Shown here piece after piece: positions 1 through 16,974 of a stretch of 45,324 nt of DNA. The notes below the pieces were generated by a model. It searched no databases and was not told the DNA's origin. It saw nothing but the letters and a program-made list of their open reading frames with translations. The stretch lies in NCBI GenBank assembly GCA_021648525.1, contig JAKISP010000034.1, forward strand, positions 1 through 45,324, written 5' to 3'. The position numbers and the translations under genes were made by a program. Positions within the stretch are counted from its first letter, which is position 1; the number at the start of each line of letters is the position of its first letter. This DNA is from Gammaproteobacteria bacterium (GTDB lineage Bacteria > Pseudomonadota > Gammaproteobacteria > SZUA-140).

Positions 1-643
1 TCAAAATAGACCTTGATCTCACTGCCCGAACGACTGATGACAATGCGGTGATACAAGTTGTCTGTTAACCAGTCACTGCTGGCCTCCTTCGGTAACGCCG
101 TGCGATTGCCGTCAATGACCTTGAACAACTGCGTAGCGCTTTGTTGATTGTTGAACATGGCAAAATAGTAGTTGTTCGCATTCTGGAAACCGAACACCAC
201 CGCATAGTCCGCCAGAGCGTTGCTGTCAACGTCATCCCCTAGGCGTGCTCTTGCAGTAAAGGTAAAGTCGCCATATGCTCCTGAAAGCAGCGAGTATTCG
301 CCCAGCTGACGCTCCAAGCCCTGGGAAAAAGCAGTGGTGTTGAGCCAGTAAACGTAATTGCCTTCATCAAGGACAACTTCCCAGCGGCTTTCAGTGAGTG
401 GTGTCCAGCCATCGGCGCTGCCATCTTCAAAATTATCCACACTGCGGTAGGTGAAGTTGATGCTGCTCTGGGCGGCGATCGTGTTGGGGGTTTGCGCCAG
501 ATCCTGCACGCTGCTGACCGAGACGGTGTAGTTGGTATCCGGGGTCAGTTCGCTGAGCGTGAGGCTGATGGTGCGGCCATCGTCACTCAGGCTGGCATTC
601 GTCACGGTAATGCCAAGACTCAGTTGGTAGTTGCTAATGGTTT
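1..643. repeat. Near-identical intragenic repeat, copy A (pairs with 2772-3414)
   Basis: The bases align without gaps to 2772-3414 at an offset of 2771. I count about 12 mismatches by eye in 643 bases, and the first 248 bases are identical. Identity falls abruptly beyond about 643. The repeat encodes the concanavalin-like domain and part of the preceding Big/Fn3-like domain in both proteins. Copy A touches the window edge, so the repeat may be longer. Confidence 0.95.
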
Positions 644-2240
644 CCGCGCTGGCAGAGCTGACCGCTTCGCTAAAACGGATATCCACGCGAGTACTACTGG
701 CCGCCGTCGAGAGCAGAGTCGGTGCGGTGGTGTCGGATAAAACGGTTAATTCAGCACTCATGCTGATGTCGCTTCCAAGGCTGTTGCTGACTTTAACGTA
801 ATAGGTGCTGCCACTGTCTGATGCGCTGACACCCGTGACGGTGACACGGCTACTGTCGGTATCGGCAATTTCAATAGTGCCGTTGCTGTCGGTGCGAGAC
901 CATTGGTAGACCAAGGGGCCGCTACCCGCAGCAACAACGTTAAAGGCCGCTTCTTCACCCTCTACTACCGTAACATCATCCGGGTGCGTCAGAATACTGG
1001 GAACAGTGGGAACCCCCGGCGAATGTCGGTACAGATGCACTCGACAATCATTGTCACGTCTAACCGAGGCGATGAAGATAACACCATGCTCATAGAGCGG
1101 TACTGCAACCGAGTCCATCGCACAATAGAGGCTGGAAAGCCGTTGCTCCCCCGTCTGCCCCCAAGTGTTGGTGTCGAGATTAAACTCCCAAATCGGGAGT
1201 TTTTCATTGGTTTGAGAGCACTCTCTATCATTGGGTTTTCCCTGGAATACCACCAAATTACCCGTATTGGGATCTATGGTTTGTATGGGGCCGGCACCCG
1301 TTTGCCCAAGAAAAGTCGGCGGATCCGCTAATCGGGTCACAACCTTGTTGCTATCCAGCATGTAGAACCGTCGCAACTCATCAACTTCTGGGGTTGGATC
1401 CGGTATCTCGCCGCCAGCGGAATAATTGAAGCCGCCACCGAAAAACATCACTCCACGATCCTGATTGTATTCACTGAAATGAGAAATCCCACCAAATGGT
1501 GCATCACTAAGGGTGACAGGGCTTTCCCAAGACTCTATTTCTGGGTTATAAAGAGCATACCTAGTCTCTCTTGGTCGCAATTTATCAACAAGTCCATCAA
1601 AAAACACCATTCGGTCAAGTTCAGGAAAAAACTCAAGTGCACTAAACTGCCCGGAGTTTATAGGTGCATTATCTAGCTGCTGCCATACACCCGTAGACAA
1701 GTCCATTCGCCATACTAAACGAGACTGGCCTATCCGTGACCAGTAATAGTGTCCGCGTGAAACATCAATAGCAGCATTATCATAACCGTGAGCACCCACA
1801 CCAAAAGGTGGCAGCTCCAAAATCGTCCAAGTATTGTGCTCCTCTGAGTACTTGACAAACCCTTGATCCCATCTGGCATAAGGCCTTCTCGTGCCCAGGA
1901 TATAAATCTCTCGACCTGCTGGGTACCACAGAGCTTCATCTGAAAACTCAAGAATATTGCCATAGTAGTCCAGCCTCCCTGGCGCATAAGGGGTCCAGAC
2001 ATCGGTATAGTTATGGTCATGCTCATGATCATGATCCAGAACCCGAAGCAGAGTCGGCGTCAGTGTCGGCAAAGGTTGCACCATCGCATCACAGGTGCTC
2101 ACTGATCCACTTATTGGGAGTTCTACAAATTCGCCTGGCAAAAGATTCTTAGCAAGCTCACTCAGAACACTGGCAGGTGAGGATATTGGCGTTAACATTA
2201 GCAGAAAACCCAACCCATAAGCCTTTAATTGTATCATCAT
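1..2240 (-). CDS. Exported Kelch/beta-propeller protein with Ig-like and concanavalin-like domains (3' end cut by window edge)
   Basis: The frame stays open for 746 codons from the ATG at 2240 to the left edge, so the C-terminus is missing. A signal peptide covers about residues 1-24. A His/Asp-rich patch follows (DHDHEHDHN, 69-77). Residues of about 80-330 hold Kelch-like repeats with blades of the form WxFNLxTNTW, MDLSTGVW and YNPEIESW. An Ig-like domain, a Big/Fn3-like domain and a concanavalin-like (LamG/DUF1080-type) domain come next. The start overlaps the stop of the preceding lyase-like gene as ATGA. It has a strong GGAGG Shine-Dalgarno nine bases upstream, so the two are translationally coupled. 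No catalytic residues of galactose oxidase were recognised, so a carbohydrate-binding or carbohydrate-oxidising role is only inferred from its neighbours. The C-terminal cassette is nearly identical in DNA to that of the gene upstream. Confidence 0.85.
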
Positions 2241-4993
2241 CTGTTTACACCTCCACTGCGACGAAACCGAAAAACCAATAACATGAAAAGAAGACTGCCA
2301 CTCAGCAGCCCAAAAACACCTCCACCACCACTATTATCAGAAGCAACACTACTAGAGCCACTGTTGTCAGCAGCGCTATTATCGCTTGCCGCCGCAGTGA
2401 CATTCACCGTACGCACCACTTGCGTCGCTGCATTCCCCGCTGCGTCCATCACGTTGTATGTCACGCTGTAATTGCCAATGGTAGCGGTATCCACCGCTGT
2501 AGCATCAATCACTATGCTGCTGATATCAACATCCATATTATCCATCGCAGTGGCACCCAGTTCGGCATAGTTCCCACCCATGGTGATGATTTGAGGGTCA
2601 GCGCCAAGCAGCGTAATCACCGGCGCAGTGGTATCTGGATCCGGGGTGTCGGGCAGATCAACGGCACCCGTCACGCTCACATCATCAAAATAGGCGGAGT
2701 CATTGTAACTACCAACACCCACCCGACCTGCCCCCAGACTGCTGTCGGTCGCGCTCAAAATCAGGGTGCCGTCAAAATAGACCTTGATCTCACTGCCCGA
2801 ACGACTGATGACAATGCGGTGATACAAGTTGTCTGTTAACCAGTCACTGCTGGCCTCCTTCGGTAACGCCGTGCGATTGCCGTCAATGACCTTGAACAAC
2901 TGCGTAGCGCTTTGTTGATTGTTGAACATGGCAAAATAGTAGTTGTTCGCATTCTGGAAACCGAACACCACCGCATAGTCCGCCAGAGCGTTGCTGTCAA
3001 CGTCATCCCCTAGGCGTGCCCTTGCAGTAAAGGTAAAGTCGCCATATGCTCCTGAAAGCAGCGAGTATTCGCCCAGCTGACGCTCCAAGCCCTGGGGAAA
3101 TTCAGTGGTGTTGAGCCAGTAAACGTAATTGCCTTCATCAAGGACAACTTCCCAGCGGCTTTCAGTGAGTGGTGTCCAGCCATCGGCATTGCCATCCTCA
3201 AAACCGTCGGCACTGCGGTAGGTGAAGTTGATGCTGCTCTGGGCGGCGATCGTGTTGGGGGTTTGCGCCAGATCCTGCACGCTGCTGACCGAGACGGTGT
3301 AGTTGGTATCCGGGGTCAGTTCGCTGAGCGTGAGGCTGATGGTGCGGCCATCGTCACTCAGGCTGGCATTCGTCACGGTAATGCCAAGACTCAGTTGGTA
3401 GTTGCTAATGGTTTCTGCACTGCCAGGACTGACCGCTTCGCTGAAGCGAATGCCCACGCGGGTCTCACTGACTGCAACGGCTGACACCAGGGTGGGCGCT
3501 TGAGTATCTGCGAGCACGGTTAATACCGCACCGCTGCTGCTGATGCTGCCGAGGTCGTTAGTGACATCAACGTTATAGGTGGCATTATCGGCCGGGGTCG
3601 TTGCCATTATCGTATAACTGGCATTGGTGGCATCTGCAATACTGGCGCCATTACGAAACCATTGATAGGCGAGTGTGGCGCTGCCTGAAGCCACAACACC
3701 AAAGGTGGCGTCCTCGCCTTCCGTTACCGTCACAGTACTGGGTTGTGTCACGATACTGGGCGGCACAGGGGTGAAACTCAGTTCAAACCGGTTGGCATGG
3801 GTGAGGGTGACAGCGCCCAGTGCCCATATATTCATGCCCATAGGGCGGCCCCAGCGCTCGACCACCTCCAAGTAGGCAGAATCTTCCCACACGGAGTAGG
3901 CCAGTTCGTAGGCACCTATTCCGTCAGTTGCAACAATGTCTCGTCCCTGCCCCCATGGCCACAAGTCGGGGTCTATCAAGTAAGGGGCATGAGTATCCAG
4001 TGCTAATTTCAGCCCCGCCCCAGTACTTGGGACGGTGTAGTTGTACAGATCCACGCCTTGCTGACGCGCAATTTCAGCTGTCATCGTCATGGCGTGAATT
4101 GCAAACATCGAGTACCCGAGCCCACCCCATTTACTATGGCTGGTGCTACGATCATGGGTACTACTGCTACGTTCATATTCCTGGGTCATAAGACCCGCAT
4201 TCACGCTATATTCATTCACAATCTGACCCGGAATCGCATTTCGAAAATTCTGAAAAGCGGCATCCATAAGCACTTGGTCATTCGTAAACGCGCCAGCGAC
4301 ACTGAGAAAGGCGTTTCTCCAATTTTCAAAGTTATTATTCGACGGACTGAGAGAAATAGCACTTTCGCCAAAGGCCTGCACCCAGGCCTTGAACGCTGTT
4401 TTTTCCGCTAAATCCCATCCAGGGTAGTTCCAGGCCAAGTCTACGCCATAAATGACACCGCTCATTGTCGGGAAGAGTTCAATGCGATCCTGGTTAGCGT
4501 AAATTCTGGGAATCATCCCCGTTATCGGGTCGGTGGCCCAAATACGCACTAGTTCAACAAGTCTCTCAGCATATTTTGCATCACCACTAAAAGCATAAGC
4601 CATACCTAGATCACGTATTGCTATTCCCACCGGGCGCGCAGCTTCAACAGCATCATATTGATTTGGGGTACCAGTAGGAGAAGGCATTGTACAAAACGCC
4701 CTGACCGGAACCGAGCACCGGTTCACGCCGCCAAAAATCACACTAAAATCACGATCATCCTGTAACACGGAGTCTGCCTGAATGAGTAACTGATCATAAG
4801 CGCTTTTCCAGGGCTCCAGGTTTTTTGCTATCTTAGCCTTGATCGCGGCCAGTTCATCTGGATTTATCAGGGTACTGGGATGCGCTTGCTCATGTGCAAT
4901 CGCCGTCGTAATGCTGCCCGCTAAAAAAATATTGATCAACAGGAATGCTAACTTTCCTTTTTTTGAGGAGAGCATGCTTTTATTGGTTTTCAT
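2237..4993 (-). CDS. Exported alginate-lyase-fold protein with Ig, Big/Fn3, concanavalin-like and DUF5011 domains and a GlyGly-CTERM-like tail
   Basis: 918 residues. A signal peptide ends near residue 33. Residues of about 38-400 match the alpha-helical alginate lyase family (Pfam Alginate_lyase, PL5-like): an NNFENWR motif at 220-226, a later Y-S-M-F-A-I-H-A helix and a conserved WGRPM segment. Accessory domains follow: Ig-like (about 410-495), Big/Fn3-like (498-594), concanavalin-like (597-776) and a DUF5011-type Ig fold (788-866). The tail has a Ser/Asn/Gly linker, GGGG (889-892), a hydrophobic segment and FRFRR, which is typical of GlyGly-CTERM proteins that rhombosortase processes after type II secretion. 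The gene overlaps the stop of the upstream lyase-like gene by 14 bases. The ATG at 4993 has a GGGGG-type ribosome site; the ATG at 4975 has none. Substrate is inferred as a uronate polysaccharide and is untested. Confidence 0.85.
2772..3414. repeat. Near-identical intragenic repeat, copy B (pairs with 1-643)
   Basis: This is the second copy of the repeat described at 1-643, inside the 918-residue lyase-like gene. The mismatches cluster in two short patches (about 3090-3105 and 3185-3215), the pattern expected of partial gene conversion. A third, clearly older copy of the same protein cassette lies at about 5745-6480 in the next gene. It is similar mainly at protein level. Confidence 0.95.
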
Positions 4994-7900
4994 GACGCCC
5001 CCAAATTTCAGGTTTTATATCGAACAGATTCACTGGCGTGACAGATGCCCTCCCTGGTTTTTTGCTGTAACGACGAAACCGAAAAACCAATAACATGAAA
5101 AGAAGACTGCCGCTCAGCAGTCCAAAAACACCACCGCCACTATTATCAGCAGCGGCGCGACTAGAACCACTATTGTCAGCAGCACTGTTAGCCACCGCCG
5201 CAACAACCGTCACTGTGCGAATCATTTCCGCCGCTGCATTTCCCGCTGCGTCCATGACGTTGTATGTCACAACGTATGAGCCTGCAGTAGAGGTATCAAC
5301 GGCCGAGTAGTCCGCCTGGATTCTCGCGGTGATACCATCATCTATATCGATATTGTCGCTGGCCGTTGCACCTAAGTCGCTGTAAGACGTGCCCACCGGA
5401 ATCGTTTGTGAACCAGGGCCTATCAGCGTGATGACCGGTGGCGTGGTGTCAACCACGGTGACGGCAACAACATTCACCGTACGCACCACTTCTGTGGCGG
5501 TATTCCCCTCTGCGTCCATGACGTTGTATGTCACAACGTATATGCCAACGGTGGCAGTATCAACCGCAGAGTAGTCATGCAGGATATTCCCGCTGATATC
5601 GTCACCCTGATTGTTATTCGCACTGGCGCCTAAGTCGCGGTAAGGGTCTCCCACTGTGAGCTCCTGTGAAGCAGGGCCTATCAGCGTGATGACCGGTGGC
5701 GGGGTGGCGGGTGTTATTGAGGCGACGCCTCCTACGCTCACATCATCAAAATAGGCAGCGTCGTTGTAACTGCCCACACCCACCTGGCCGACACCCCGGC
5801 GGTTGTCGTTGGCACTTAGCATCAGGCTGCCATCAAAGTACACGCTGATTGCGCTTCCCGCCCGGCTAACTTCAATGCGGTGATAGGCGTCGTCGCTGGG
5901 GCCGTTAATGTTGGCCGTCGCCAAGGTGGTTCTGCTGCCGCTTTCAACTTTAAACAGTTGTGTCGCGTTTTTCTGGTTGTTGAACATCATGTAGTAATAG
6001 TTCTTCTCATCCTCGAACCCGAACACCACCGCGTAATCGGCAAGGGCATTATCGCTCACGTCGTCACCCAGCTTCGCTTGTGCGGTAAAAGTGAAATCAC
6101 CATAACTTCCTGGCAGTAAAGAATATTCACCCAAACGGCCGGTGGGGAGGCTGTCAAAGCCAGAGGTATTGAGCCAGTAAACGTAATTGCCTCCATCAAG
6201 GACAACTTCCCAGCGGCTTTCAGTGAGCGGGACCCAGCCATCCGCATTGCCATCGTCAAAACCGTCGGCACTGCGGTAGGTGAAGTTGACGCTGCTCTGG
6301 GCATCAATGGTGTTGGGGGTTGCCGCCCGGTCCGGCACGTTACTGACCGACACGTTATAGCTGGTGTCCGTGGCCAGCTGACTGACAGTGAGGCTAACCG
6401 TGCGGCCATCGCCGCTCAGGCTGGCGCCGGTCACGGCTATCCCAAGGTCAATTTGATAGTTGCCACTGCTTTCGGCACTGCTGGCGCTGACGGGCTCGCT
6501 AAAACGGATATCCACGCGGGTGTCGCTGGCCGCAACAGCTGAGAGCAGGGTCGGGGCGGTGGTGTCTGGCGATACGGCCAATACGGCACCATCGCTACTG
6601 ATACTGCCCTGGTCGTTAGTGATATAGCAGTGATAGGTGCCGCTGTCTGACGAACTCGCCGCTATCACCGTGTAGCTGGCGCTGGTGGCACCGGGAATTT
6701 CGGTATTATCGCGGAACCATTGGTAGACCAGAGTGGCGCTTCCGGTGGCAACCACACTAAAAGTGGCATCTGCGCCTTCCGTTACCGTAATGGCATCAGG
6801 TTGCGTCACAAGGCTGGGTGGTGTAGGGGTAAAATTCAGAGAAAACATATTCCCGTGGGTGAGGGTATTGATGCCCATTACCCGAATTTCGTCCATGGGG
6901 CGTCCCCAGCGGTTAATGGCCTCAAGATAAATGGGATCTTGATAGTAAGAATAAGCCAATTCAAACAATGCCATATTATCATCCTGACTAATCAGGACAG
7001 ATTGCTCATAGTTATATGGTGGCTCTACCCAACTTTCAGGGTCAATGGCAAAAGGGGCCATAAAACTCAGCGCCAATTTCAGACTCCTTTCGCCAGCAGC
7101 TTCATAGTCATAAAGATTGACCCCATGGTGGCGCATGATCTCCGCACCTTGAATCATGGCATTGATCGCATATAGCGAATAATCCAGGCCCTGGGATCTC
7201 TCTACCTCCTGAATCATGAGCCCGGGACGGTCACTGCTAGCGCGCGTCATCTGAACAGAAACCAGATATTTCCACGCTGATTCCACATAATCCAACAAAC
7301 CTTGATCATCCAACAAACTACCGGCTGACGCGATTAGCACATTTCGCCAGTTGGCAAAATTGTTCACATTCGTTGAGGTGCCGTTGGAGGATATGATGGC
7401 GCTGATTTGCTGGGTTCTGGTCAAATCGGCTATCTTTTTCACCCAAGCTCGAAAACTTTCTTTTTCACTACCGACCCAGCCGCCCTCGCCATCATAGTTC
7501 CAGATCAAATCTGCACCATAAAAATAACCGGGCAGGGTGATAAAGAGTTCAATACGCATAGCGGTATCATCTGCCGCCATTCGAGTTTCTGGATCCACCG
7601 ACCAAACTCGAATTAATTCAATGGCTTTATTGGCATATTTTGCCTCACCAGTAAAGACATAACCCAAGCCCAAATCCCGCACCGCATTGCCGAGTGCAAT
7701 GGCCGACAGATAATCCCCCCGATCTTGTGCGCTATTGAGTGCACCAACGCGACAGTCAGGGAGGTTTCCATCAACTTCAACCCATCCACAACGAGGGTTT
7801 TCAGTATAATACTGCCTACTGGTTCTTCCTTCATAAGTCACACTCAACGGTGATTGAGTTAGCGCTGCATTGGCCGCGTCCATCACCTTGCTATGGGCAC

Positions 7901-8081
7901 TGGCCCAAGGTTCTTCTTCAGTCACAACCTTCTCTTTTATCGCATCAATCTCGGCTTGATTTAGATACATATTGGGGTGCGGGCCTGCCACGGCCACACC
8001 AACAGATAGCACAAAGGCGATTAATACCAACCCAGCCCAGAACATTATCCCAGAAAATTGCGCAATACTTTTTGCTTTCAT
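4980..8081 (-). CDS. Exported alginate-lyase-fold protein with Ig, Big/Fn3, concanavalin-like and two DUF5011 domains and a GlyGly-CTERM-like tail
   Basis: 1033 residues from the ATG at 8081, which follows GGAG at seven bases and begins a clear signal peptide (to about residue 32). The frame is open to 8213, but that would put 44 residues in front of the signal peptide. The lyase-fold region (about 35-412) shares the architecture of its downstream paralogue: NNFANWR at 240-246, YSLYAINA and WGRPM. Then come Ig-like (420-504), Big/Fn3-like (508-602), concanavalin-like (605-785) and two DUF5011-type domains (794-871 and 880-960). The tail has GGG (982-984), a hydrophobic segment and FRFRR (1000-1004). 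About 29 extra residues then run into the start of the next gene, which is odd for this sorting signal. It lies 68 bases downstream of the haem protein. Confidence 0.85.
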
Positions 8082-8149
8082 CGGATATCTCCGTGGTCGT
8101 AAATTCAATGAATAACATCTCGCCAAAAGAAACCAGCGATTGAACGGGT

Positions 8150-11100
8150 TCATACTTTTCTCTCTGTGCCGGTTAACACAGGGTGAGGATAATGGACGAA
8201 AGCTGAACCGCATTTCAATAACAGCAGAACTAATAGCGACAACATTCCAAAACCACCGCCACCACTTCCGCCGCCACTTCCACTATCAGTAGAATCGGCC
8301 GAGGCCAGGACTGTGACACTGGCAGTGCCGATGACAGAGAGTCCGCCCGAATCCGTGGCACGGAACTGAAAACTATCACTGCCGGAAAACCCGCCGTTGG
8401 GGGTATACACCAGCTGATTACCAATCACCTGTGCATTACCGTTCGAAGGTGACGAAAAAATGCTGATGACATGATTGTCGCCATCATCCGAATCAGTCAC
8501 CTGCGCAGACACACCCGCACTCTGCGTACCCTCATTGGTAGTGATGCTGGCACTGGCAGCGGTGGGGGCGCTATTACCAGGAGGCGGTCCCGCTAACACC
8601 GTAACATTGGCAGTACCCGTAACGGACAGCCCTCCCAGATCACTGGCGCTGAACTGAAAACTGTCATCGCCTACAAATCCGGCACTGGGGGTATACACCA
8701 GCTTATTACCAATCACCTCCGCGCTGCCGTTCGAAGGTAGTGAAACGATGCTGACGATATGAGCATCGCCAACATCCGGGTCGGTCACCAGTGCAAACAC
8801 CCCTGCGCTCTGAATATCTTCGTAGGTTGTAATAGTAGCGCTGGCAAAGGTCGGCGCGCGATTGGTGACGCTACTCCCGATCATGCGCAACAAGGCACGT
8901 CCCGTAACGGTTCTGCGGGTACGGTTGGCGGCTGTTTCACCAGGCCGCGTCCTGCTCCAACTACGGTCGGGCTTATCCCAGATTTCCAGGGTGATTTCGA
9001 TGCTGTCGGCATTGCCCTCGGTCACCGTAGTGGGCAAGAAAACGGTGATCGTATCCGGTGAGCCGGTTACCTCAGGTGTAATATCAACGCCATTGGCGGT
9101 TACGCTGAAACGGGTAAAATCAAGTGGTGAATCATCCCATAGTCCGACTAAAATACTGTTCACGCTAGAGCCACCCACGGGCGTGAGGGTCATCACCGGG
9201 CGCATCATGTCATTATGCACATTAACTTTAGGCGCGCCGATGTCCAGCCAGCGGGCAATCAGACGTTTCTCCGCCACCGGCATGTCGGAAACGTAGGCTA
9301 GATGCTCGCTCACCTTGGGCCAGATTTCCGGGTATTCCTTACCTCTTTCGTCCACCACGACACCACTGCCCGCTGGCGGTAGGCCTGTGATCGGGTCACG
9401 CCCGTCCAGACGCTCGCCATACAGAGCCCACACCAGCATGCTGGAACGCGCACTGTTGACGGAAATCCAGCGTGAAGGTGTACAACACTGATAGCGCAGG
9501 GTAATACGGTCCGTCCCTGCTTCGTCAATATCCGTCAGACCATCGCCCGGTTTAGACCTGAAGCTGATGGCCGTGCCATCCTCGCGAGTGTATTTATTCT
9601 TGGTGAGCAATTCATAGGCTCGCTTATTGCCGTCCAGGCGCAGGCCGGTGAGTTGCTGGGCGGGTTGTCCTTCTGCATGACAAGAAGCACAGCGGTTTTG
9701 CACAATCGCCGCAATATTGTTGTCCCAATCCACTGCGAAGGAGCGCCTAGCCATAACGCCAGCTTCTCCAGCATAGGTTTCCCGCGCACTGGCGACGGTG
9801 GGATAACCGTTGGCATCTTCTCCCTCAAACAACGGTGCACTGATGCCGGTGAAGTCGCCAAATTCACTGACATTGGTTTTGGCTCGCGAAGTAAAGGGAT
9901 CCATGCCCTCTCGAGTATGTACATGACAACCCGCGCAAAACTGCTGTTCGCCACGCGCAACGGAGCGCGAGGCAGTTTCGATATCCAGCGCCATGCCACG
10001 TTTGTCAATCGTTTGCATCAGGAACGGCGTATCGGCGGGAACCCGTACAATAAAGCTGGTATCCGGATTGCCTTGTTCGTCGACAGGTTCCACACCGTTG
10101 CCATCGGGTTTACGCACCGGATACTCACCCAGAATCCGCAGATGATGCCGTTGATAACCAGCCCATTTCTCTGCCCTGATGTAAGGCTCAAGATCTTCGG
10201 AGATCTGTGGCACGGGTATCAGGACGCGTATCCCAAAGATTTCATCATTATCAAAAATGGCTAGCTCAGCGCCGCTCACCGCAAGATTCATGTAGGTACG
10301 ACCCGACATTGCGCCGCCTCCATCCTTCATATTCCAGGGTGTGCCGTTAAGCGAAAGAGTTTCCCTGTCGTACATTGAAGCTGCACCGGTGAGACCGTAG
10401 GGCGCACCAGCAGGCAGACGTTGATCTTTGGTGCCATCGTTGCTAGTAGGCGGACGGGTATTATTGGGGTCCGGACGCGCAATGCCATAAATATCCTGAT
10501 AACTCACCACCGCACGCGCCATGATTTCATGGTACTCGGGGAAATCCACGACTACTTCGCCATCATCGGCGATATGCCCTATCTGGCGACTGCTATTGGG
10601 TTCCAGCGGCAACAACCAGATTCCGGCGTCCTTGCCGATGACTTTCATAACCGCCTCAAGTGTCGTATCACGAAACACTGAGGAATCTATTGTAGAAGAA
10701 CCGCCAATACTGTAGGTTGCCAGCAAATCATTATCCGGCGCCGCCGCAGGATGGGAGAATCGGCCGTTCATGGTCACGGTACGACCACCCACCGGATGCA
10801 CAAAATACTCCGAGGGATCGTATGGGGGCATCTGCGTATCACCCGAACCCGCCCTGGGTGTCAGGCGAAACTGCTTGGGGCGGGCAAACGGCACTAGGGA
10901 AGTGCCTGATCTCCAGGTATCCGGTAGCGAGGTGAGCACATCCCCGACCGTATTACCTTGATTAGTGCGATGCACAAAATCCGGCCCCGGAGGATCCACC
11001 GGAAAACGCTCCAGCGCCCCCAGCCCAATCTGCTGATGGGTGTAATACAGTGTAACGACAATGTCACCGTCCGACAGCTGGGTGAAATAGTGATACGACC

Positions 11101-12082
11101 AAAACGTGGCGTCGTTTTTGCCGGCAAAAATAAACGGTGCGGAGCCGTCGGGGTTGATTTCAAACAGAGAAAAATTGTTATTGGAAGTGCGTTGCAGCAT
11201 CCGGTCGAAGTTGGTGTAAACAATGCGGCCATCCATCAAGGTAGCAGGGTGCAGCTGGTTTTTCATCGCACGATGGCTCAACACTTCCATATTTCGCCCG
11301 TCACGGTCCATCGCAAACAGCTGGAACATGCCAAAACCCTCTTGACGATTGCTAGTGAAACCAATACGACCGTCAGGCATAAAAAACGGGCCGGTGTCCA
11401 TCACCGGGATATTGGATGTCCATTCCGAACCTTTTCCGGGGTGGGCACGGCCAGCAAACATCTTGCTGTCGGGAGACACCTGAGTCTCAATACCCATCTG
11501 CAAATCGTAGATAAAAACCAACGCTGGGTTGGCATAGGGTTTAAGGTCTCCATAAAGCCAACTCGCAAATCGGTTGCCACCAATAGCACCATTTGGATCA
11601 AGCCTCATAAAGGCCTGAAAGGCCACTGGAGTAACCCCCTTGCTGTCAAAACTGGAGAGAAACGTACGGGTATCCGTAAACTTGGTGTACACCACATAAC
11701 GACCGTCAAAAGAAACGTTGGGGTCGGCCACCGAACACACAGGATTTGAGGTATCGTCCTCGTCGCAATCCACCAGCACTTTCTCTGCTGCGCGGTCACC
11801 GGGGAGCATACTGGAGTCATGCAAAACCAAATCGCAACCCGGCTGATGATAGACGTTGTTGGTGGCCGACAACCACAGGTCATTAACCCCGTTCCAGTTC
11901 AATAAATCCTCGGTGCCATTACGCGAAACCGGCTCTTTACCTCGCGGGCAGCGCACGTACACCACGTCGTAGTCAATACTGGCAAATTTGGCCTGATGTT
12001 GTGCCGCAGACGCTATTCCAGGCAGGTTGAATCCTGCTAAAATACCGAAAACAGCCCATACAGGCATGAAATATTTGATCAT
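8150..12082 (-). CDS. Exported hydrazine-synthase-alpha-like di-haem cytochrome with cadherin-like repeats and a GlyGly-CTERM-like tail
   Basis: 1310 residues with a signal peptide (cleavage near residue 26). The N-terminal ~350 residues look like a TolB/WD40-type beta-propeller. Residues of about 400-700 resemble the HzsA middle-domain family (Pfam HZS_alpha) found in many non-anammox bacteria. Two c-type haem attachment motifs are present: CAGCH at 716-720 and CASCH at 798-802. A CCTPSRW segment follows. Two cadherin-like repeats start at about 1074 and 1170, each ending in a D-S-F-Q-F motif. The C-terminus has a Gly/Ser linker, GGGG and a Leu-rich hydrophobic stretch, then about 18 unusual residues instead of an Arg cluster. 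No HzsB or HzsC partner is visible, so hydrazine synthesis is not implied. First gene of the four-gene operon; ribosome site weak. The family call is from recognition, not a search. Confidence 0.8.
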   Translation of the reverse strand: MIKYFMPVWAVFGILAGFNLPGIASAAQHQAKFASIDYDVVYVRCPRGKEPVSRNGTEDLLNWNGVNDLWLSATNNVYHQPGCDLVLHDSSMLPGDRAAEKVLVDCDEDDTSNPVCSVADPNVSFDGRYVVYTKFTDTRTFLSSFDSKGVTPVAFQAFMRLDPNGAIGGNRFASWLYGDLKPYANPALVFIYDLQMGIETQVSPDSKMFAGRAHPGKGSEWTSNIPVMDTGPFFMPDGRIGFTSNRQEGFGMFQLFAMDRDGRNMEVLSHRAMKNQLHPATLMDGRIVYTNFDRMLQRTSNNNFSLFEINPDGSAPFIFAGKNDATFWSYHYFTQLSDGDIVVTLYYTHQQIGLGALERFPVDPPGPDFVHRTNQGNTVGDVLTSLPDTWRSGTSLVPFARPKQFRLTPRAGSGDTQMPPYDPSEYFVHPVGGRTVTMNGRFSHPAAAPDNDLLATYSIGGSSTIDSSVFRDTTLEAVMKVIGKDAGIWLLPLEPNSSRQIGHIADDGEVVVDFPEYHEIMARAVVSYQDIYGIARPDPNNTRPPTSNDGTKDQRLPAGAPYGLTGAASMYDRETLSLNGTPWNMKDGGGAMSGRTYMNLAVSGAELAIFDNDEIFGIRVLIPVPQISEDLEPYIRAEKWAGYQRHHLRILGEYPVRKPDGNGVEPVDEQGNPDTSFIVRVPADTPFLMQTIDKRGMALDIETASRSVARGEQQFCAGCHVHTREGMDPFTSRAKTNVSEFGDFTGISAPLFEGEDANGYPTVASARETYAGEAGVMARRSFAVDWDNNIAAIVQNRCASCHAEGQPAQQLTGLRLDGNKRAYELLTKNKYTREDGTAISFRSKPGDGLTDIDEAGTDRITLRYQCCTPSRWISVNSARSSMLVWALYGERLDGRDPITGLPPAGSGVVVDERGKEYPEIWPKVSEHLAYVSDMPVAEKRLIARWLDIGAPKVNVHNDMMRPVMTLTPVGGSSVNSILVGLWDDSPLDFTRFSVTANGVDITPEVTGSPDTITVFLPTTVTEGNADSIEITLEIWDKPDRSWSRTRPGETAANRTRRTVTGRALLRMIGSSVTNRAPTFASATITTYEDIQSAGVFALVTDPDVGDAHIVSIVSLPSNGSAEVIGNKLVYTPSAGFVGDDSFQFSASDLGGLSVTGTANVTVLAGPPPGNSAPTAASASITTNEGTQSAGVSAQVTDSDDGDNHVISIFSSPSNGNAQVIGNQLVYTPNGGFSGSDSFQFRATDSGGLSVIGTASVTVLASADSTDSGSGGGSGGGGFGMLSLLVLLLLKCGSAFVHYPHPVLTGTERKV

Positions 12083-12412: not shown

Positions 12413-12823
12413 TCAAGGGCGGTTAATTTTCTGAAACAATCCTGAGATCTCCTCGGGCACAAATGGACGCCCACGCTTATTGAGCGCAGTCCCGGTGATT
12501 TTCGCCTTCATCACCAGGCGCTCGTCCGAACTGCGATAGATATCCTGCAGAAAATCAAAACGAACCTTGGAGTTTTGCTGAGTATTCAGTCCAATCCAAA
12601 ATTCATCGCCGCTGGTTAGCGGAGTCTTATAGTCCAGCTCGGCCCGCACTACCACCAAGTTAATATTGTTTTTGGCTAATTCCGCAAAATCAACCCCTGA
12701 GGCGAGCAGATACTCGTGGCGCGCATGCTCCAGGTAGTTCTGATAGACGCCATTATTGACGATCCCCTGAATATCACATTCATAGTCCCGCACCTTAAAA
12801 CCAAGCCGAAATGCATATTCCAT
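12413..12823 (-). CDS. Hotdog-fold acyl-CoA thioesterase (4HBT, YbgC/FadM-like)
   Basis: 136 residues, the usual length for a single hotdog domain. The N-terminal stretch with Y-E-C-D-I-Q-G-I-V-N-N followed by Y-Q-N-Y-L-E-H-A-R matches the catalytic Asp loop and long helix of the 4HBT thioesterase family. The Asp at residue 17 is the expected catalytic residue. The ATG at 12823 has AGGGA about six bases upstream. Family members hydrolyse acyl-CoA thioesters in the cytoplasm; the chain-length preference cannot be read. It stands alone, upstream of the surface-protein operon and divergent from the EF-G gene. Confidence 0.85.
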   Translation of the reverse strand: MEYAFRLGFKVRDYECDIQGIVNNGVYQNYLEHARHEYLLASGVDFAELAKNNINLVVVRAELDYKTPLTSGDEFWIGLNTQQNSKVRFDFLQDIYRSSDERLVMKAKITGTALNKRGRPFVPEEISGLFQKINRP

Positions 12824-13004
12824 CGTAATTCCCTGCAGATTAGATAAAAAACAATATTAACTATAAAAACAACAGGTTACAGATAAAAAAATTAACAGTC
12901 AAAAACATGTAGGGAGCAAACCCATATAATATCCACTAATATTGATGAAAACCCTCTATTTTTACAAAATTTTCAGGTAAAATGCGCCCTTTTCGAATGC
13001 TGGC

Positions 13005-13041
13005 TGCTCAGGCCAATTTTACGACTAGCGGCCACTGAGCA
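13005..13041 (+). promoter_or_regulatory. Leader hairpin 1 upstream of EF-G paralogue
   Basis: TGCTCA-GGCC pairs with GGCC-AC-TGAGCA, a 10-bp stem with a two-base bulge and a 15-base loop. No U-run follows. The role is unknown. Confidence 0.35.
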
Positions 13042-13141
13042 TCTGAGACAACATCATCCGCGAAGCATCGGCTGATAATTGTTTTGCCCCTTGAGCATAC
13101 ACTTAGAAACATATGCTTGGGGTGGTAATATATTTTAGCTC

Positions 13142-13175
13142 GATGGCGACCGCCGCACGCAGATTGTCGGCCATC
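13142..13175 (+). promoter_or_regulatory. Leader hairpin 2 upstream of EF-G paralogue
   Basis: GATGGC-GAC pairs with GTC-G-GCCATC, a 9-bp stem with one bulged base. A short T-rich stretch starts about eight bases after it. It could act as an attenuator or simply be a structured 5' leader. Confidence 0.35.
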
Positions 13176-13227
13176 TGGAACGTTTTTATTATTAACCAAA
13201 CCTTATATTAAACATTAGAGTACTCAC

Positions 13228-15312
13228 ATGACAGACCTATCGCTTTACAGAAACATCGGTATCTTCGCTCACGTCGATGCCGGTAAAACCACCACCACCG
13301 AGCGCATCCTGAAACTTACTGGTAAGATTCATAAGCTGGGAGAAGTACATGACGGTGCCGCGACCACCGATTTCATGGAACAGGAGCAAGAGCGCGGTAT
13401 TACGATTCAGTCCGCAGCAACCACCTGCTTCTGGAACGATCACCGTTTCAACATTATCGATACCCCTGGCCATGTCGATTTCACCATCGAAGTTTACCGT
13501 TCACTGAAAGTACTGGATGGCGGTGTGGGTGTGTTCTGTGGTTCTGGTGGCGTAGAGCCTCAATCTGAAACCAACTGGCGTTATGCCAATGAATCAGAAG
13601 TGGCGCGCATCATCTACGTCAACAAAATGGATCGCATGGGTGCAGACTTTTACCGTGTGACTGACCAGATCAAAAAAGTACTCGGCGCCCATCCGCTGAT
13701 CATGACACTGCCGATCGGCATCGAAGAAGACTTCATTGGCATCATCGACCTGATGGAGATGAAGGCGTGGGTCTGGGATGAATCGGGTGATCCATTGAAC
13801 TACGAAATCACCGACATTCCTGCTGAATACAAAGAAAAAGCGGAAGAGTATCGTGAAATGATGGTCGAAACCGCACTGGATCAGGACGATGATCTGATGG
13901 AAAAATATCTCGACGGCGAACTGCCATCGATTGATGACCTTAAGCGCTGCATCCGCAAGGGCACCATCAACCTTGATTTCTTCCCTACATTCTGTGGCTC
14001 TGCTTTCAAAAACAAAGGTGTTCAACCGATGCTGAATGGCGTGGTTGATTACCTCCCTAGCCCAACTGAAGTTAAGCCACAACCTGAAGTTGATATGGAA
14101 GGTACCGCCACCGGTGAATTCGCGATTGTTGATGTTGACAAGCCTTTCCGCGCACTGGCATTCAAAATCATGGATGACCGTTTCGGCGCACTGACCTTTA
14201 TCCGAATTTACTCAGGCACATTGAACAAAGGCGACACCATTCTGAATACCTTTACCGGCAAAACCGAGCGTATCGGTCGCCTGGTAGAGATGCATGCGGA
14301 TGACCGTATCGAGCTAAGCAGCGCGCAAGCCGGTGACATTATTGCCATCGTCGGCATGAAAAATGTTCAAACAGGCCACACCCTGTGTGACCCTAAAAAC
14401 CCAGCCACTCTTGAGCCGATGGTATTTCCAGAACCAGTGATCTCAATCGCAGTTGCACCTAAAGACAAAGGCGGTTCTGAGAAGATGGGCATCGCGATCG
14501 GCAAAATGGTTCAGGAAGATCCATCATTCCGCGTTGAAACAGACGAAGATTCAGGCGAAACCATTCTTAAAGGGATGGGTGAGCTACATCTAGATATTAA
14601 AGTCGACATCCTTAAGCGTACCCACGGCATTGAGCTGGAAGTCGGTAAGCCACAGGTTGCCTATCGTGAAACCATCACGAAGATCACTGAAGATTCATAC
14701 ACGCATAAGAAACAGTCAGGTGGTTCTGGTCAGTTCGCTAAAATCGATTACATCATCGAACCAGGCGAACCAGGCAGTGACTACGAATTTGCTTCAAAAG
14801 TGACCGGCGGCAACGTACCTCGTGAATTCTGGCCCGCGGTTGAAAAGGGTTTCAAACTCAGCATGGAGAAGGGTGTACTGGCCGGTTACCCACTACTCGA
14901 CATCAAGATCACACTGCTGGACGGTGGCTTCCACGCGGTCGATTCATCTGCCGTGGCGTTTGAGATTGCAGCAAAAGCGGCTTATCGTCAGACCATCCCT
15001 AAGGCTGGCCCTCAGATAATTGAGCCAATCATGAAAGTTGACGTATTCACCCCAGATGACCATGTGGGTGATGTGATCGGCGATCTTAACCGTCGTCGTG
15101 GCATGATCAAGTCTCAGGAAGCAGGTATCACTGGCGTGCGTATTAAAGCCGATTGCCCACTGAGTGAAATGTTTGGCTACATCGGTGATCTGCGTACCAT
15201 GACCTCGGGTCGTGGCCAGTTCTCAATGGAGTTCTCGCACTACCTGCCTTGCCCTAAAAATGTTGCAGATGAGGTTATCAAAGAAGCTCAGGAACGCAAC
15301 GCGAAGAAATAA
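13228..15312 (+). CDS. fusA2: Elongation factor G, second (fusA2-type) paralogue
   Basis: 694 residues, full length for EF-G, the GTPase that drives ribosome translocation and, with RRF, ribosome recycling. The GTP-binding motifs are intact: AHVDAGKTT (P-loop, about 14-22), a switch I region with [14 protein letters not shown] and NKMD. Domains II to V follow at normal length with no gap. The N-terminal sequence and the [16 protein letters not shown] segment match the separately encoded EF-G of Vibrio and relatives rather than the EF-G of the str operon. There is no rpsL, rpsG or tuf nearby, which supports a paralogue. It is monocistronic, with its own leader and a strong terminator. Whether it acts in translocation, recycling or stress cannot be told from sequence. 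Confidence 0.92.
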
Positions 15313-15325
15313 TTCACTAGCGATC

Positions 15326-15396
15326 ATGCCTGTGACTTCATTTGAGGTCACCGGCATAAAAAAGGGAGAGACCATTAATGGTCTCGCCCTTTTTTG
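15326..15396 (+). terminator. Rho-independent terminator after EF-G paralogue (double hairpin)
   Basis: A first hairpin (15326-15356, ATGCC/GGCAT and GTGAC/GTCAC) is followed by a strong one at 15364-15389. The second has stem GGGAGAGACCAT/ATGGTCTCGCCC, with A residues before it and a T6 run after it. The A-run/T-run arrangement should work in both directions, which suits the convergent Wzz-like gene ending at 15420. Confidence 0.9.
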
Positions 15397-15419
15397 TTTC
15401 TAATAGCAAGGAGAAAATA

Positions 15420-16877
15420 TCAGCCATTCGCCTGAGAAGAGGTGGCTGACACTAGTTTAACCTTACGCTCCCCCTCATCCGCGATGACAGCAAGCGCTGC
15501 CACCTCAGCCTTCCGCTTACTGACAGCTCTTAGAAATTCCATAAAAAAAGCAACCAGCACACCAAAAATAAGGCCAATAAAAGCGGCAAAAACTATCATC
15601 ACAAGCGGGAGACCCTGTCCTGGATCACCTTTCATTGGCAACACAAAAAACCGAGTAGGGCTAATCGCATCGAGACCAAACACCAGTTGCTCAACCTGTA
15701 ATAGCTTACGTTCAATTGCAGCCGAATTATTGAACTCAAATAATTCCACCTCTCGCCTCAACTGCTCGACGGGCATCTGAGTCGTCACCAATGAGCGATC
15801 ATGCTCAATTTTGATCAGATCAAACTCTTTTTTCATTAAGTCGATTTTTTTCTTTGCCTGCAGACGCCCCTCTCGGCTTGCTAACAAATCGTTCTCCATC
15901 ACAAGCTCTCGCTGTGGGAATGCAATCACCAGTCGCTGTTCAAGCTCTGCGAGACGTGAGCGATTGCCCTGAATCACATTATCAATCAAGAGCAACGCAA
16001 CCCCATCGACACCGTCAGAGGCCTCGGCAACCACCGACACACTACGCTGTAACGCCTGCTTAATCTGCCCATCAAGATCAAGAATCTCTTTTTCCAATAA
16101 CCGCCGTTCTGTCTCAAACTGAGAGCGTCGCTTTGTCAATAACACCTCGCCTCTGTGCAGCGTGGCAAGCGACTGTTCTGCCGCTTCAATCGCCTGTTTT
16201 GCACGCTCTTTTTTTACCTCAATGGTAAGTGGCATCTCCAGCCGTTCTAATGTCATTTCTGATTTTATAAGCCGGTCTAAGAGCACCTGTCTGTTGTGAA
16301 CAAGGAGCATTGGCTCCTGCATTATCGCTAGTTCGCGCCGCTGAACTTTCAGCTGATTCTCTAGCCCCCTGCGCTGCGGCGCTATTAATCGATCATGGTC
16401 TTTTGATAACATCCCCAGAATCTCTTCATGCATGACACGCTGCACTGCTCCTGGAACAGAGCCAATACTCGTCAACACAACCAGCTGATTATTTCCTGTC
16501 TTCTGTTCACTCAATCGGGCAGCCTCAATCTTTATATCAAGACCCTTATTTTTATCACGGTGAACACTCAGCACCAAAGGAATATAAACCTGATTAAGTT
16601 TGCTCAAAGATACTACAGAGGATTCCAGCGGCACTAATACTCCGCCAAGAGTCTCAGCAGCACCTGGAATATTGGTCGATGCCAACTCAATAGTCGAAAC
16701 ATAACTATACTGCTCTTTTTCGAATAGCATTACGGCCACCACCAGCGCCATAGAGACAATCATCGCACTGACAATCAACCACTTGTATCTAGCCAGAATC
16801 AACCATAAATCGATAATGCTGATCTCGTCCTCGTATGCCTGAGAACGACTAAAACCACCAGGAGAACCATTGCTCAT
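15420..16877 (-). CDS. Wzz-family chain-length determinant-like inner-membrane protein
   Basis: 485 residues from the ATG at 16877; the upstream in-frame TTG at 16895 is less likely. The layout is that of polysaccharide co-polymerases. There is a short cytoplasmic N-terminus (EDEISIIDLW at about 16-25), a first membrane helix at about 34-54, a long periplasmic segment rich in Glu, Lys and Leu that should form coiled coil (about 160-400), a Pro-rich stretch, and a second membrane helix at about 432-455 (LVMIVFAAFIGLIFGV). No C-terminal kinase domain is present. Family members set the chain length of O-antigen or capsule with a Wzy polymerase. No glycosyltransferase, wzx or wzy gene is near, so its polymer is unknown. 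Confidence 0.8.
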   Translation of the reverse strand: MSNGSPGGFSRSQAYEDEISIIDLWLILARYKWLIVSAMIVSMALVVAVMLFEKEQYSYVSTIELASTNIPGAAETLGGVLVPLESSVVSLSKLNQVYIPLVLSVHRDKNKGLDIKIEAARLSEQKTGNNQLVVLTSIGSVPGAVQRVMHEEILGMLSKDHDRLIAPQRRGLENQLKVQRRELAIMQEPMLLVHNRQVLLDRLIKSEMTLERLEMPLTIEVKKERAKQAIEAAEQSLATLHRGEVLLTKRRSQFETERRLLEKEILDLDGQIKQALQRSVSVVAEASDGVDGVALLLIDNVIQGNRSRLAELEQRLVIAFPQRELVMENDLLASREGRLQAKKKIDLMKKEFDLIKIEHDRSLVTTQMPVEQLRREVELFEFNNSAAIERKLLQVEQLVFGLDAISPTRFFVLPMKGDPGQGLPLVMIVFAAFIGLIFGVLVAFFMEFLRAVSKRKAEVAALAVIADEGERKVKLVSATSSQANG

Positions 16878-16974
16878 ATATACCAGTCCATTCAAATATA
16901 TTTACACAGATAACCTCTACAGCCTAGACAATACATAAAAACAGTACGGTTAAGCAATCACACTCTATCTCTCA

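Follow-up and report, generated by a model that had tools for sequence, protein, structure and literature searches.

An HzsA-Like Dihaem Protein Encoded with Lyase-Fold and Kelch-Propeller Proteins in a Recurrent Gammaproteobacterial Gene Set

Introduction

What might a relative of hydrazine synthase do at the head of a run of genes for alginate-lyase-fold and Kelch-type surface proteins? Outside the anammox bacteria there are many homologues of the hydrazine synthase alpha subunit (HzsA), none with a function that has been tested (PMC12758564). The locus that raises the question lies in a stretch of 45,324 nucleotides (the window), which is the entire contig C63 of a 3.36 Mb gammaproteobacterial draft genome (76 contigs, 99.9% complete); we present the host as a carbon-fixing, marine-type bacterium. 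The parts of the locus belong to known families, and their combination was not found in the open papers that we searched, in which HzsA or HZS_alpha was nowhere described together with polysaccharide. A repeated context of lyases, hydrolase, Kelch and exopolysaccharide genes is a testable lead on the substrate of this HzsA branch.

Results

Layout of the Locus

Four long open reading frames lie on the minus strand, to which all features below also belong. By the ORF list and Pfam, and in order of transcription, they encode an HzsA-like exported dihaem protein (8150..12082), two proteins with the PF05426 lyase fold, here lyase A (4980..8213, likely start about 8081) and lyase B (2237..4993), and a Kelch-propeller protein (3..2240) whose 3′ end is lost at the start of the contig. 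Lyase B and the Kelch gene overlap by 4 bases (2240/2237) and lyases A and B by 14 bases (4993/4980). The mechanical ATG of lyase A at 8213 is not its favoured start, and the 68-base gap between the HzsA-like gene and lyase A exists only if translation begins at the Met preceding the signal peptide (about 8081). With that start, the spacing described in the initial annotation was reproduced in full. As the window is a whole contig, we attribute the truncation of the Kelch gene to assembly; the contig ends within the cassette part of this gene, in a repeat (1..300) whose DNA is identical to 2772-3071. Promoter and terminator scans performed at chance level and have no bearing either way on co-transcription. 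The four-gene operon is real and recurrent, its co-transcription presumed.

Elsewhere the window holds mostly housekeeping genes (metal-ATPase, argJ, secA, a division/murein cluster and what we take to be an elongation-factor-G gene). A Wzz-like gene near the operon scored 22.5 bits, below its cut-off of 25.5. No transporter was recognised by eye in the four contigs of this genome that carry the module, nor SusC/SusD in the loci read.

The HzsA-Like Protein

The first gene product has a TolB-like propeller, an HZS_alpha middle domain, two CxxCH motifs, cadherin/Big_9 repeats and a Gly-rich hydrophobic tail. It matched HZS_alpha (PF18582) at 1.7e-8, and a profile of 47 HzsA-like proteins matched hydrazine synthase alpha (5c2v_A) at 5.5e-22; this family profile was needed, as phmmer with the single protein against the PDB returned no hydrazine synthase. 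The predicted structure (pLDDT 80, pTM 0.86) superposed on 5c2v_D with a Z-score of 30.5 over 603 residues at 3.7 Å, and the three-part architecture of HzsA (propeller, middle haem domain and C-terminal haem domain) is present. The first haem motif, CAGCH (9923..9937), is followed by an invariant His (CxxCHxH), and the second is CASCH (9677..9691), both motifs being invariant in 47/47 relatives. Judged by sequence and model, the window protein is a true HzsA homologue, and its initial assignment as HzsA-like with two CxxCH motifs was borne out. In hydrazine synthase, Tyr591 ligates the iron of haem alpha-I, and this residue is missing in the HzsA homologues of clades I-III outside anammox (PMC12758564). 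At the aligned position all 47 relatives have Q, R, K or H, and because this haem ligand is absent the protein is not a hydrazine synthase. Any redox or catalytic role is putative. On reading through the window and the contigs of the module, we recognised no gene for a beta or gamma subunit. A quick tree with SH-aLRT support only placed the window protein in a clade of 10 (support 100), within a wider gammaproteobacterial clade of 13 (support 100) that includes Thiohalobacter thiocyanaticus.

The Lyase-Fold Proteins

Lyases A and B matched PF05426 (Alginate_lyase) at 1.1e-35 and 8.9e-34, respectively, passing the 22.2-bit cut-off, and the lyase profile matched the structures 3nfv (5.6e-31) and BoPL38 (8bdq, 6.3e-25). 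In both, the lyase domain (6834-8003 in lyase A, 3770-4903 in lyase B) is accompanied by Ig, Big_5/fn3 and LamG-like domains, with two Bact_surface_Ig domains in lyase A and Bact_surface_Ig in lyase B. Two residues act as base in BoPL38: Tyr298 in syn-elimination on mannuronate, and His243 in anti-elimination on guluronate (PMC13169297). Our alignment of ten sequences (A4) and a profile alignment to 8bdq place an NNF motif of lyase A (7356..7364) opposite the NNH of BoPL38 that contains His243, and a conserved Tyr (7179..7181) opposite Tyr298. The catalytic-His position is Phe in all ten rows and in the other copies read; the Tyr is invariant in the alignment, and the site's Arg and Asn are retained as well. 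Thus the two alginate-lyase folds first proposed are present, while their catalytic residues are conserved at Tyr and not at His. The uniform change of NNH to NNF makes lyase activity uncertain, and retention of the Tyr with Phe at the His243 site leads us to predict syn-elimination only, if the proteins are active. These lyases appear from their sequences to be a divergent PL5/PL38 branch, perhaps restricted to syn-elimination or perhaps inactive, and the branch is marked by having Phe throughout where its closest relative of known activity has a catalytic His.

The Kelch Protein, Shared Cassette and Surface Sorting

Pfam Kelch matches in the last gene were weak. The Kelch-propeller assignment nevertheless stood up to modelling (pLDDT 74): the best among the structural matches listed was the Kelch region of muskelin (Z 25.0, 294 residues, 3.3 Å), and Foldseek matched a designed Kelch protein at E 1.7e-11. 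An identity as galactose oxidase was considered and rejected, the Pfam Kelch models so named matching weakly; galactose oxidase is absent among the best 50 structural matches listed for the model, which is not evidence of absence.

Lyase B carries its Ig, Big_5 and LamG-like domains at 2639..3769, as a cassette that recurs in lyase A, the Kelch protein and their paralogues elsewhere in the genome, so that Pfam and cassette comparison agree with the initial view of an Ig, Big_5/fn3 and LamG-like cassette common to the last three genes. The LamG-like part also matches structures of levanase C-terminal domains (about 5e-5). GlyGly-CTERM-like tails had been proposed as well. The window's own three C-terminal tails gave no match to the GlyGly-CTERM model (TIGR03501) even at E up to 10; three paralogue tails exceeded its 15.5-bit cut-off (beta-helix protein of contig C14, 21.5; C14 lyase, 19.8; C36 lyase, 18.1), and a rhombosortase gene is present in the genome (TIGR03902, 173 bits; cut-off 84). 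For the window's own tails, the proposal is therefore less secure than first put.

The Rest of the Gene Set in the Same Genome

The same genome has a second, paralogous set: in all it contains two HzsA-like genes (80% identical), two Kelch genes and seven PF05426 genes. Contig C14 carries, in order, genes for a lyase, a beta-helix protein, a Calx-beta/esterase-like hydrolase, an HzsA-like protein and two further lyases, and C15 a lyase and a Kelch protein. The end of C30 has an open-ended cassette tail followed by a hydrolase, a beta-helix protein and an RCC1 protein. Its cassettes are 78-90% identical to that of lyase B (49-72% for those of C14, C15 and C36) and the window starts in the 300-base repeat of 2772-3071, so that C30 probably continues the window operon across a repeat-induced break; exact overlaps between the contig ends tested, window and C30 included, gave no join. 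The beta-helix partner (C14, C30) is weakly PL6-like, with matches to 7o78 (3.5e-4), 6kfn (0.002) and chondroitinase B (1dbg, 0.034). The nucleophile motif of the hydrolase, GQSMGG, is kept in 10/10 copies read outside one fused relative, L103.

Recurrence in Relatives

Scanning a single genome for each species yielded 72 loci. Where HzsA-like identity was at least 74%, a lyase, hydrolase, beta-helix or Kelch homologue lay within the fetched flank in 12 of 14 loci, as compared with 1/49 (the fused L103) where identity was below 40%, counts that are a description and not a rate because flank lengths vary. Among the 20 genomes of the order that the search covered, lyase relatives were found in four, all of which have a close HzsA-like gene; a fifth carrier of such a gene is incomplete and has no lyase relative (Fisher's exact p about 0.001, calculated by hand and ignoring relatedness). 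The genes that had been grouped on the basis of the window are thereby found together in related genomes too, and their recurrence in many genomes argues that the combination is not due to chance. Several of the named relatives bear SZUA or HyVt isolate names, as used for hydrothermal-vent MAG series.

Kelch genes also accompany the HzsA-like gene in L054 and L055, directly beside it, and in L059, within the flank. HzsA identity in these loci is 57-60%, and the HzsA-Kelch pairing may therefore be the older core of the set. In L103 a hydrolase-like domain that has lost its catalytic Ser is fused to the HzsA-like domain with no signal peptide between them. L044 was also considered as a clean hydrolase-HzsA fusion and rejected, since its two parts are separated by a Gly-rich tail and a new signal peptide and a stop codon has probably been lost.

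Exopolysaccharide Genes and Metabolism

Nine loci of relatives (L048, L049, L050, L054, L059, L094, L098, L099 and L103) have exopolysaccharide genes adjoining the HzsA-like gene. In L048, L094, L054 and L059 these include glycosyltransferase, sulfotransferase, amidotransferase, deacetylase or Wzx genes; for instance, L048 and L094 have a glycosyltransferase and a sulfotransferase, and L094 also an amidotransferase and a deacetylase. L049 and L050 have a FemAB-like gene and a weakly deacetylase-like gene, and the deep branch of L098, L099 (Haliea salexigens) and L103 has Wzx- and Wzy-type genes, with an XrtA/PEP-CTERM amidotransferase above cut-off in L098. A lyase is also present in L048, L049 and L050. 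Exopolysaccharide genes were not seen in the flanks of several lyase-bearing loci, and the frequency of these markers is not unbiased because the BLAST-map markers came partly from the same loci. In L055 the HzsA-like gene is paired with a glycoside-hydrolase-like gene.

The window's genome encodes RuBisCO. The 99.9% complete draft contains no KDPG aldolase (the enzyme of the last step of uronan catabolism; PF01081, a profile that matched 8/14 controls) and no member of the heparinase II/III family (PF07940, PL15/PL17/PL21-type exo-lyases; controls matched), single missing families in a draft genome not being proof of absence. Genes for a UDP-glucose dehydrogenase and a sugar-phosphate transferase are neighbours, from which it is plausible that a uronate-containing exopolysaccharide can be made.

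Discussion

The role that we favour for the module is at the cell surface, trimming or modifying the cell's own acidic exopolysaccharide, and we put its probability at a little under one half (about 0.45). It takes as its basis what was observed: the gene set and its recurrence, the folds, the haem motifs and the neighbouring genes. We infer that the genes are co-transcribed and would supply lyase-fold proteins and a PL6-like beta-helix protein that bind and cut uronate-containing chains, with ester groups probably removed by the Calx-beta/esterase-like hydrolase. The Ig, Big_5 and LamG-like cassette would anchor the proteins to the polysaccharide, and rhombosortase-type processing would place them at the surface or outer envelope. 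The redox part would be played by the HzsA-like dihaem protein, which would either alter the polymer or exchange electrons with it in either direction, and the Kelch propeller would be its frequent partner. This proposal is supported by the recurrent set, the paralogous set, the exopolysaccharide neighbours in nine loci and the L103 fusion, and, in the host's own genome, by RuBisCO, UDP-glucose dehydrogenase, the rhombosortase and the lack of KDPG aldolase and heparinase II/III. It is weakened by the window locus having only the sub-threshold Wzz-like gene, by the several lyase-bearing loci whose flanks show no exopolysaccharide genes and by the change of His to Phe in the lyases.

The same proteins might instead serve in feeding, with surface lyases cutting acidic polysaccharide of foreign origin (from algae, biofilm or animal mucus), which the haem protein would oxidise to yield carbon or electrons. 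The joint presence of PL38-like and weakly PL6-like proteins, as in alginate loci, would fit such foraging, as would the polysaccharide-binding cassette, the surface sorting and the glycoside-hydrolase-like neighbour in L055. We nevertheless consider it unlikely, given a RuBisCO-encoding genome that is 99.9% complete and lacks KDPG aldolase and heparinase II/III-type lyases, module contigs in which no transporter was seen, and relatives in which exopolysaccharide genes adjoin the HzsA-like gene; the link to foreign polysaccharide is thus disfavoured. Could the polymer be bound and not cut? The lyase-fold, Kelch and cassette regions would then hold exopolysaccharide in a conductive or adhesive surface layer through which the dihaem protein carries electrons, an arrangement consistent with all lyase copies read having Phe at the catalytic-His position, the loss of Ser from the fused hydrolase-like domain of L103, and the plentiful Ig-like and cadherin-like repeats. 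The lyase site nevertheless retains its Tyr, Arg and Asn throughout, and 10/10 separate hydrolases keep GQSMGG, as if both were under catalytic constraint, and we regard a purely structural role as quite improbable. True homology to hydrazine synthase alpha raises the prospect of a nitrogen enzyme, whose product or substrate would be hydrazine, hydroxylamine or NO. With Gln, Arg, Lys or His at the Tyr591 position in 47/47 relatives and polysaccharide-type operon partners in many genomes, we judge this very improbable.

A broader and rather doubtful suggestion is that gammaproteobacterial HzsA-like dihaem proteins form a new class of redox enzymes with exopolysaccharide as substrate, working alongside Kelch proteins, lyases and hydrolases at the surface. 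The hydrazine-synthase scaffold would in that case have kin in sugar-polymer redox chemistry, and the gene context bears on the origin of this scaffold.

Each part of the module has a characterised or described counterpart. The window lyases share the PF05426 fold of BoPL38 (8bdq) and 3nfv and keep the catalytic Tyr, Arg and Asn-Asn, but have Phe at His243 and add the Ig, Big_5 and LamG-like cassette and a surface tail. PL38-like and PL6-like lyases occur together in Bacteroides alginate utilisation loci (PMC11381880), much as PL38-like and weakly PL6-like proteins do here, whereas the present genome has no PL17-type lyase domain or KDPG aldolase and adds haem and Kelch proteins. The HzsA-like genes of relatives beside amidotransferase, deacetylase, Wzx and Wzy-type genes recall XrtA/PEP-CTERM exopolysaccharide loci (PMC1569441); sorting here looks instead to be of the GlyGly-CTERM/rhombosortase type, and the window locus lies outside such a cluster. 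With HzsA of anammox bacteria (5c2v) the window protein shares the propeller, HZS_alpha middle domain, C-terminal haem domain and two CxxCH motifs (Z 30.5 over 603 residues), yet it is 19% identical, lacks the Tyr591 ligand, has extra cadherin-like repeats and is encoded with polysaccharide-type partners, no beta or gamma subunit gene having been recognised beside it. It resembles the non-anammox HZS_alpha proteins of clades I-IV, HzsA homologues without the Tyr591 ligand whose function is not established and which were defined by co-located homologues of the beta-gamma subunit (PMC12758564). From these the window protein is set apart by context, the partners recognised being lyases, a hydrolase and a Kelch protein.

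Cassette Similarity Within the Operon

The cassette of Ig, Big_5/fn3 and LamG-like domains in the Kelch gene (positions 1-626) is 97-100% identical at the DNA level, over ~600 bases, to that in the gene for lyase B (2772-3397), while the domains adjoining the two copies show no relation between these genes. Because such near-identical DNA lies amid unrelated domains, and because the likeness of cassettes is higher within one locus than between loci, the sequences suggest that the cassettes have undergone gene conversion.

Neighboring and Related Genes

In a genome of the same genus (locus L042, 1-2944), the HzsA-like gene is a short remnant with in-frame stops, located at the same site by the elongation-factor-G gene as in the window, with the lyase gene still present. 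The closest HzsA-like relative (88% identical; L043, 9830-13570) is spread across two ORFs, a split due to a frameshift or a sequencing error. On the far side of the elongation-factor-G gene is a Wzz-like chain-length-determinant gene (15420-16895), its match scoring 22.5 bits, under the cut-off of 25.5; the order of these two genes is kept in two genomes of the genus (loci L037 and L042).

Elsewhere in the window's genome, contig C36 carries another lyase gene and a series of ORFs that resemble multi-haem cytochromes, in which the CxxCH motif recurs (L035, 3750-7159). At the end of contig C30, a beta-helix gene is followed by one whose exported product has RCC1 repeats and a tail rich in Gly (L036, 6794-9448). 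The mechanical ORF of a hydrolase at the same locus (12488-15106) begins within the tail of the preceding gene (14922-15611); the hydrolase's actual start probably lies farther downstream.
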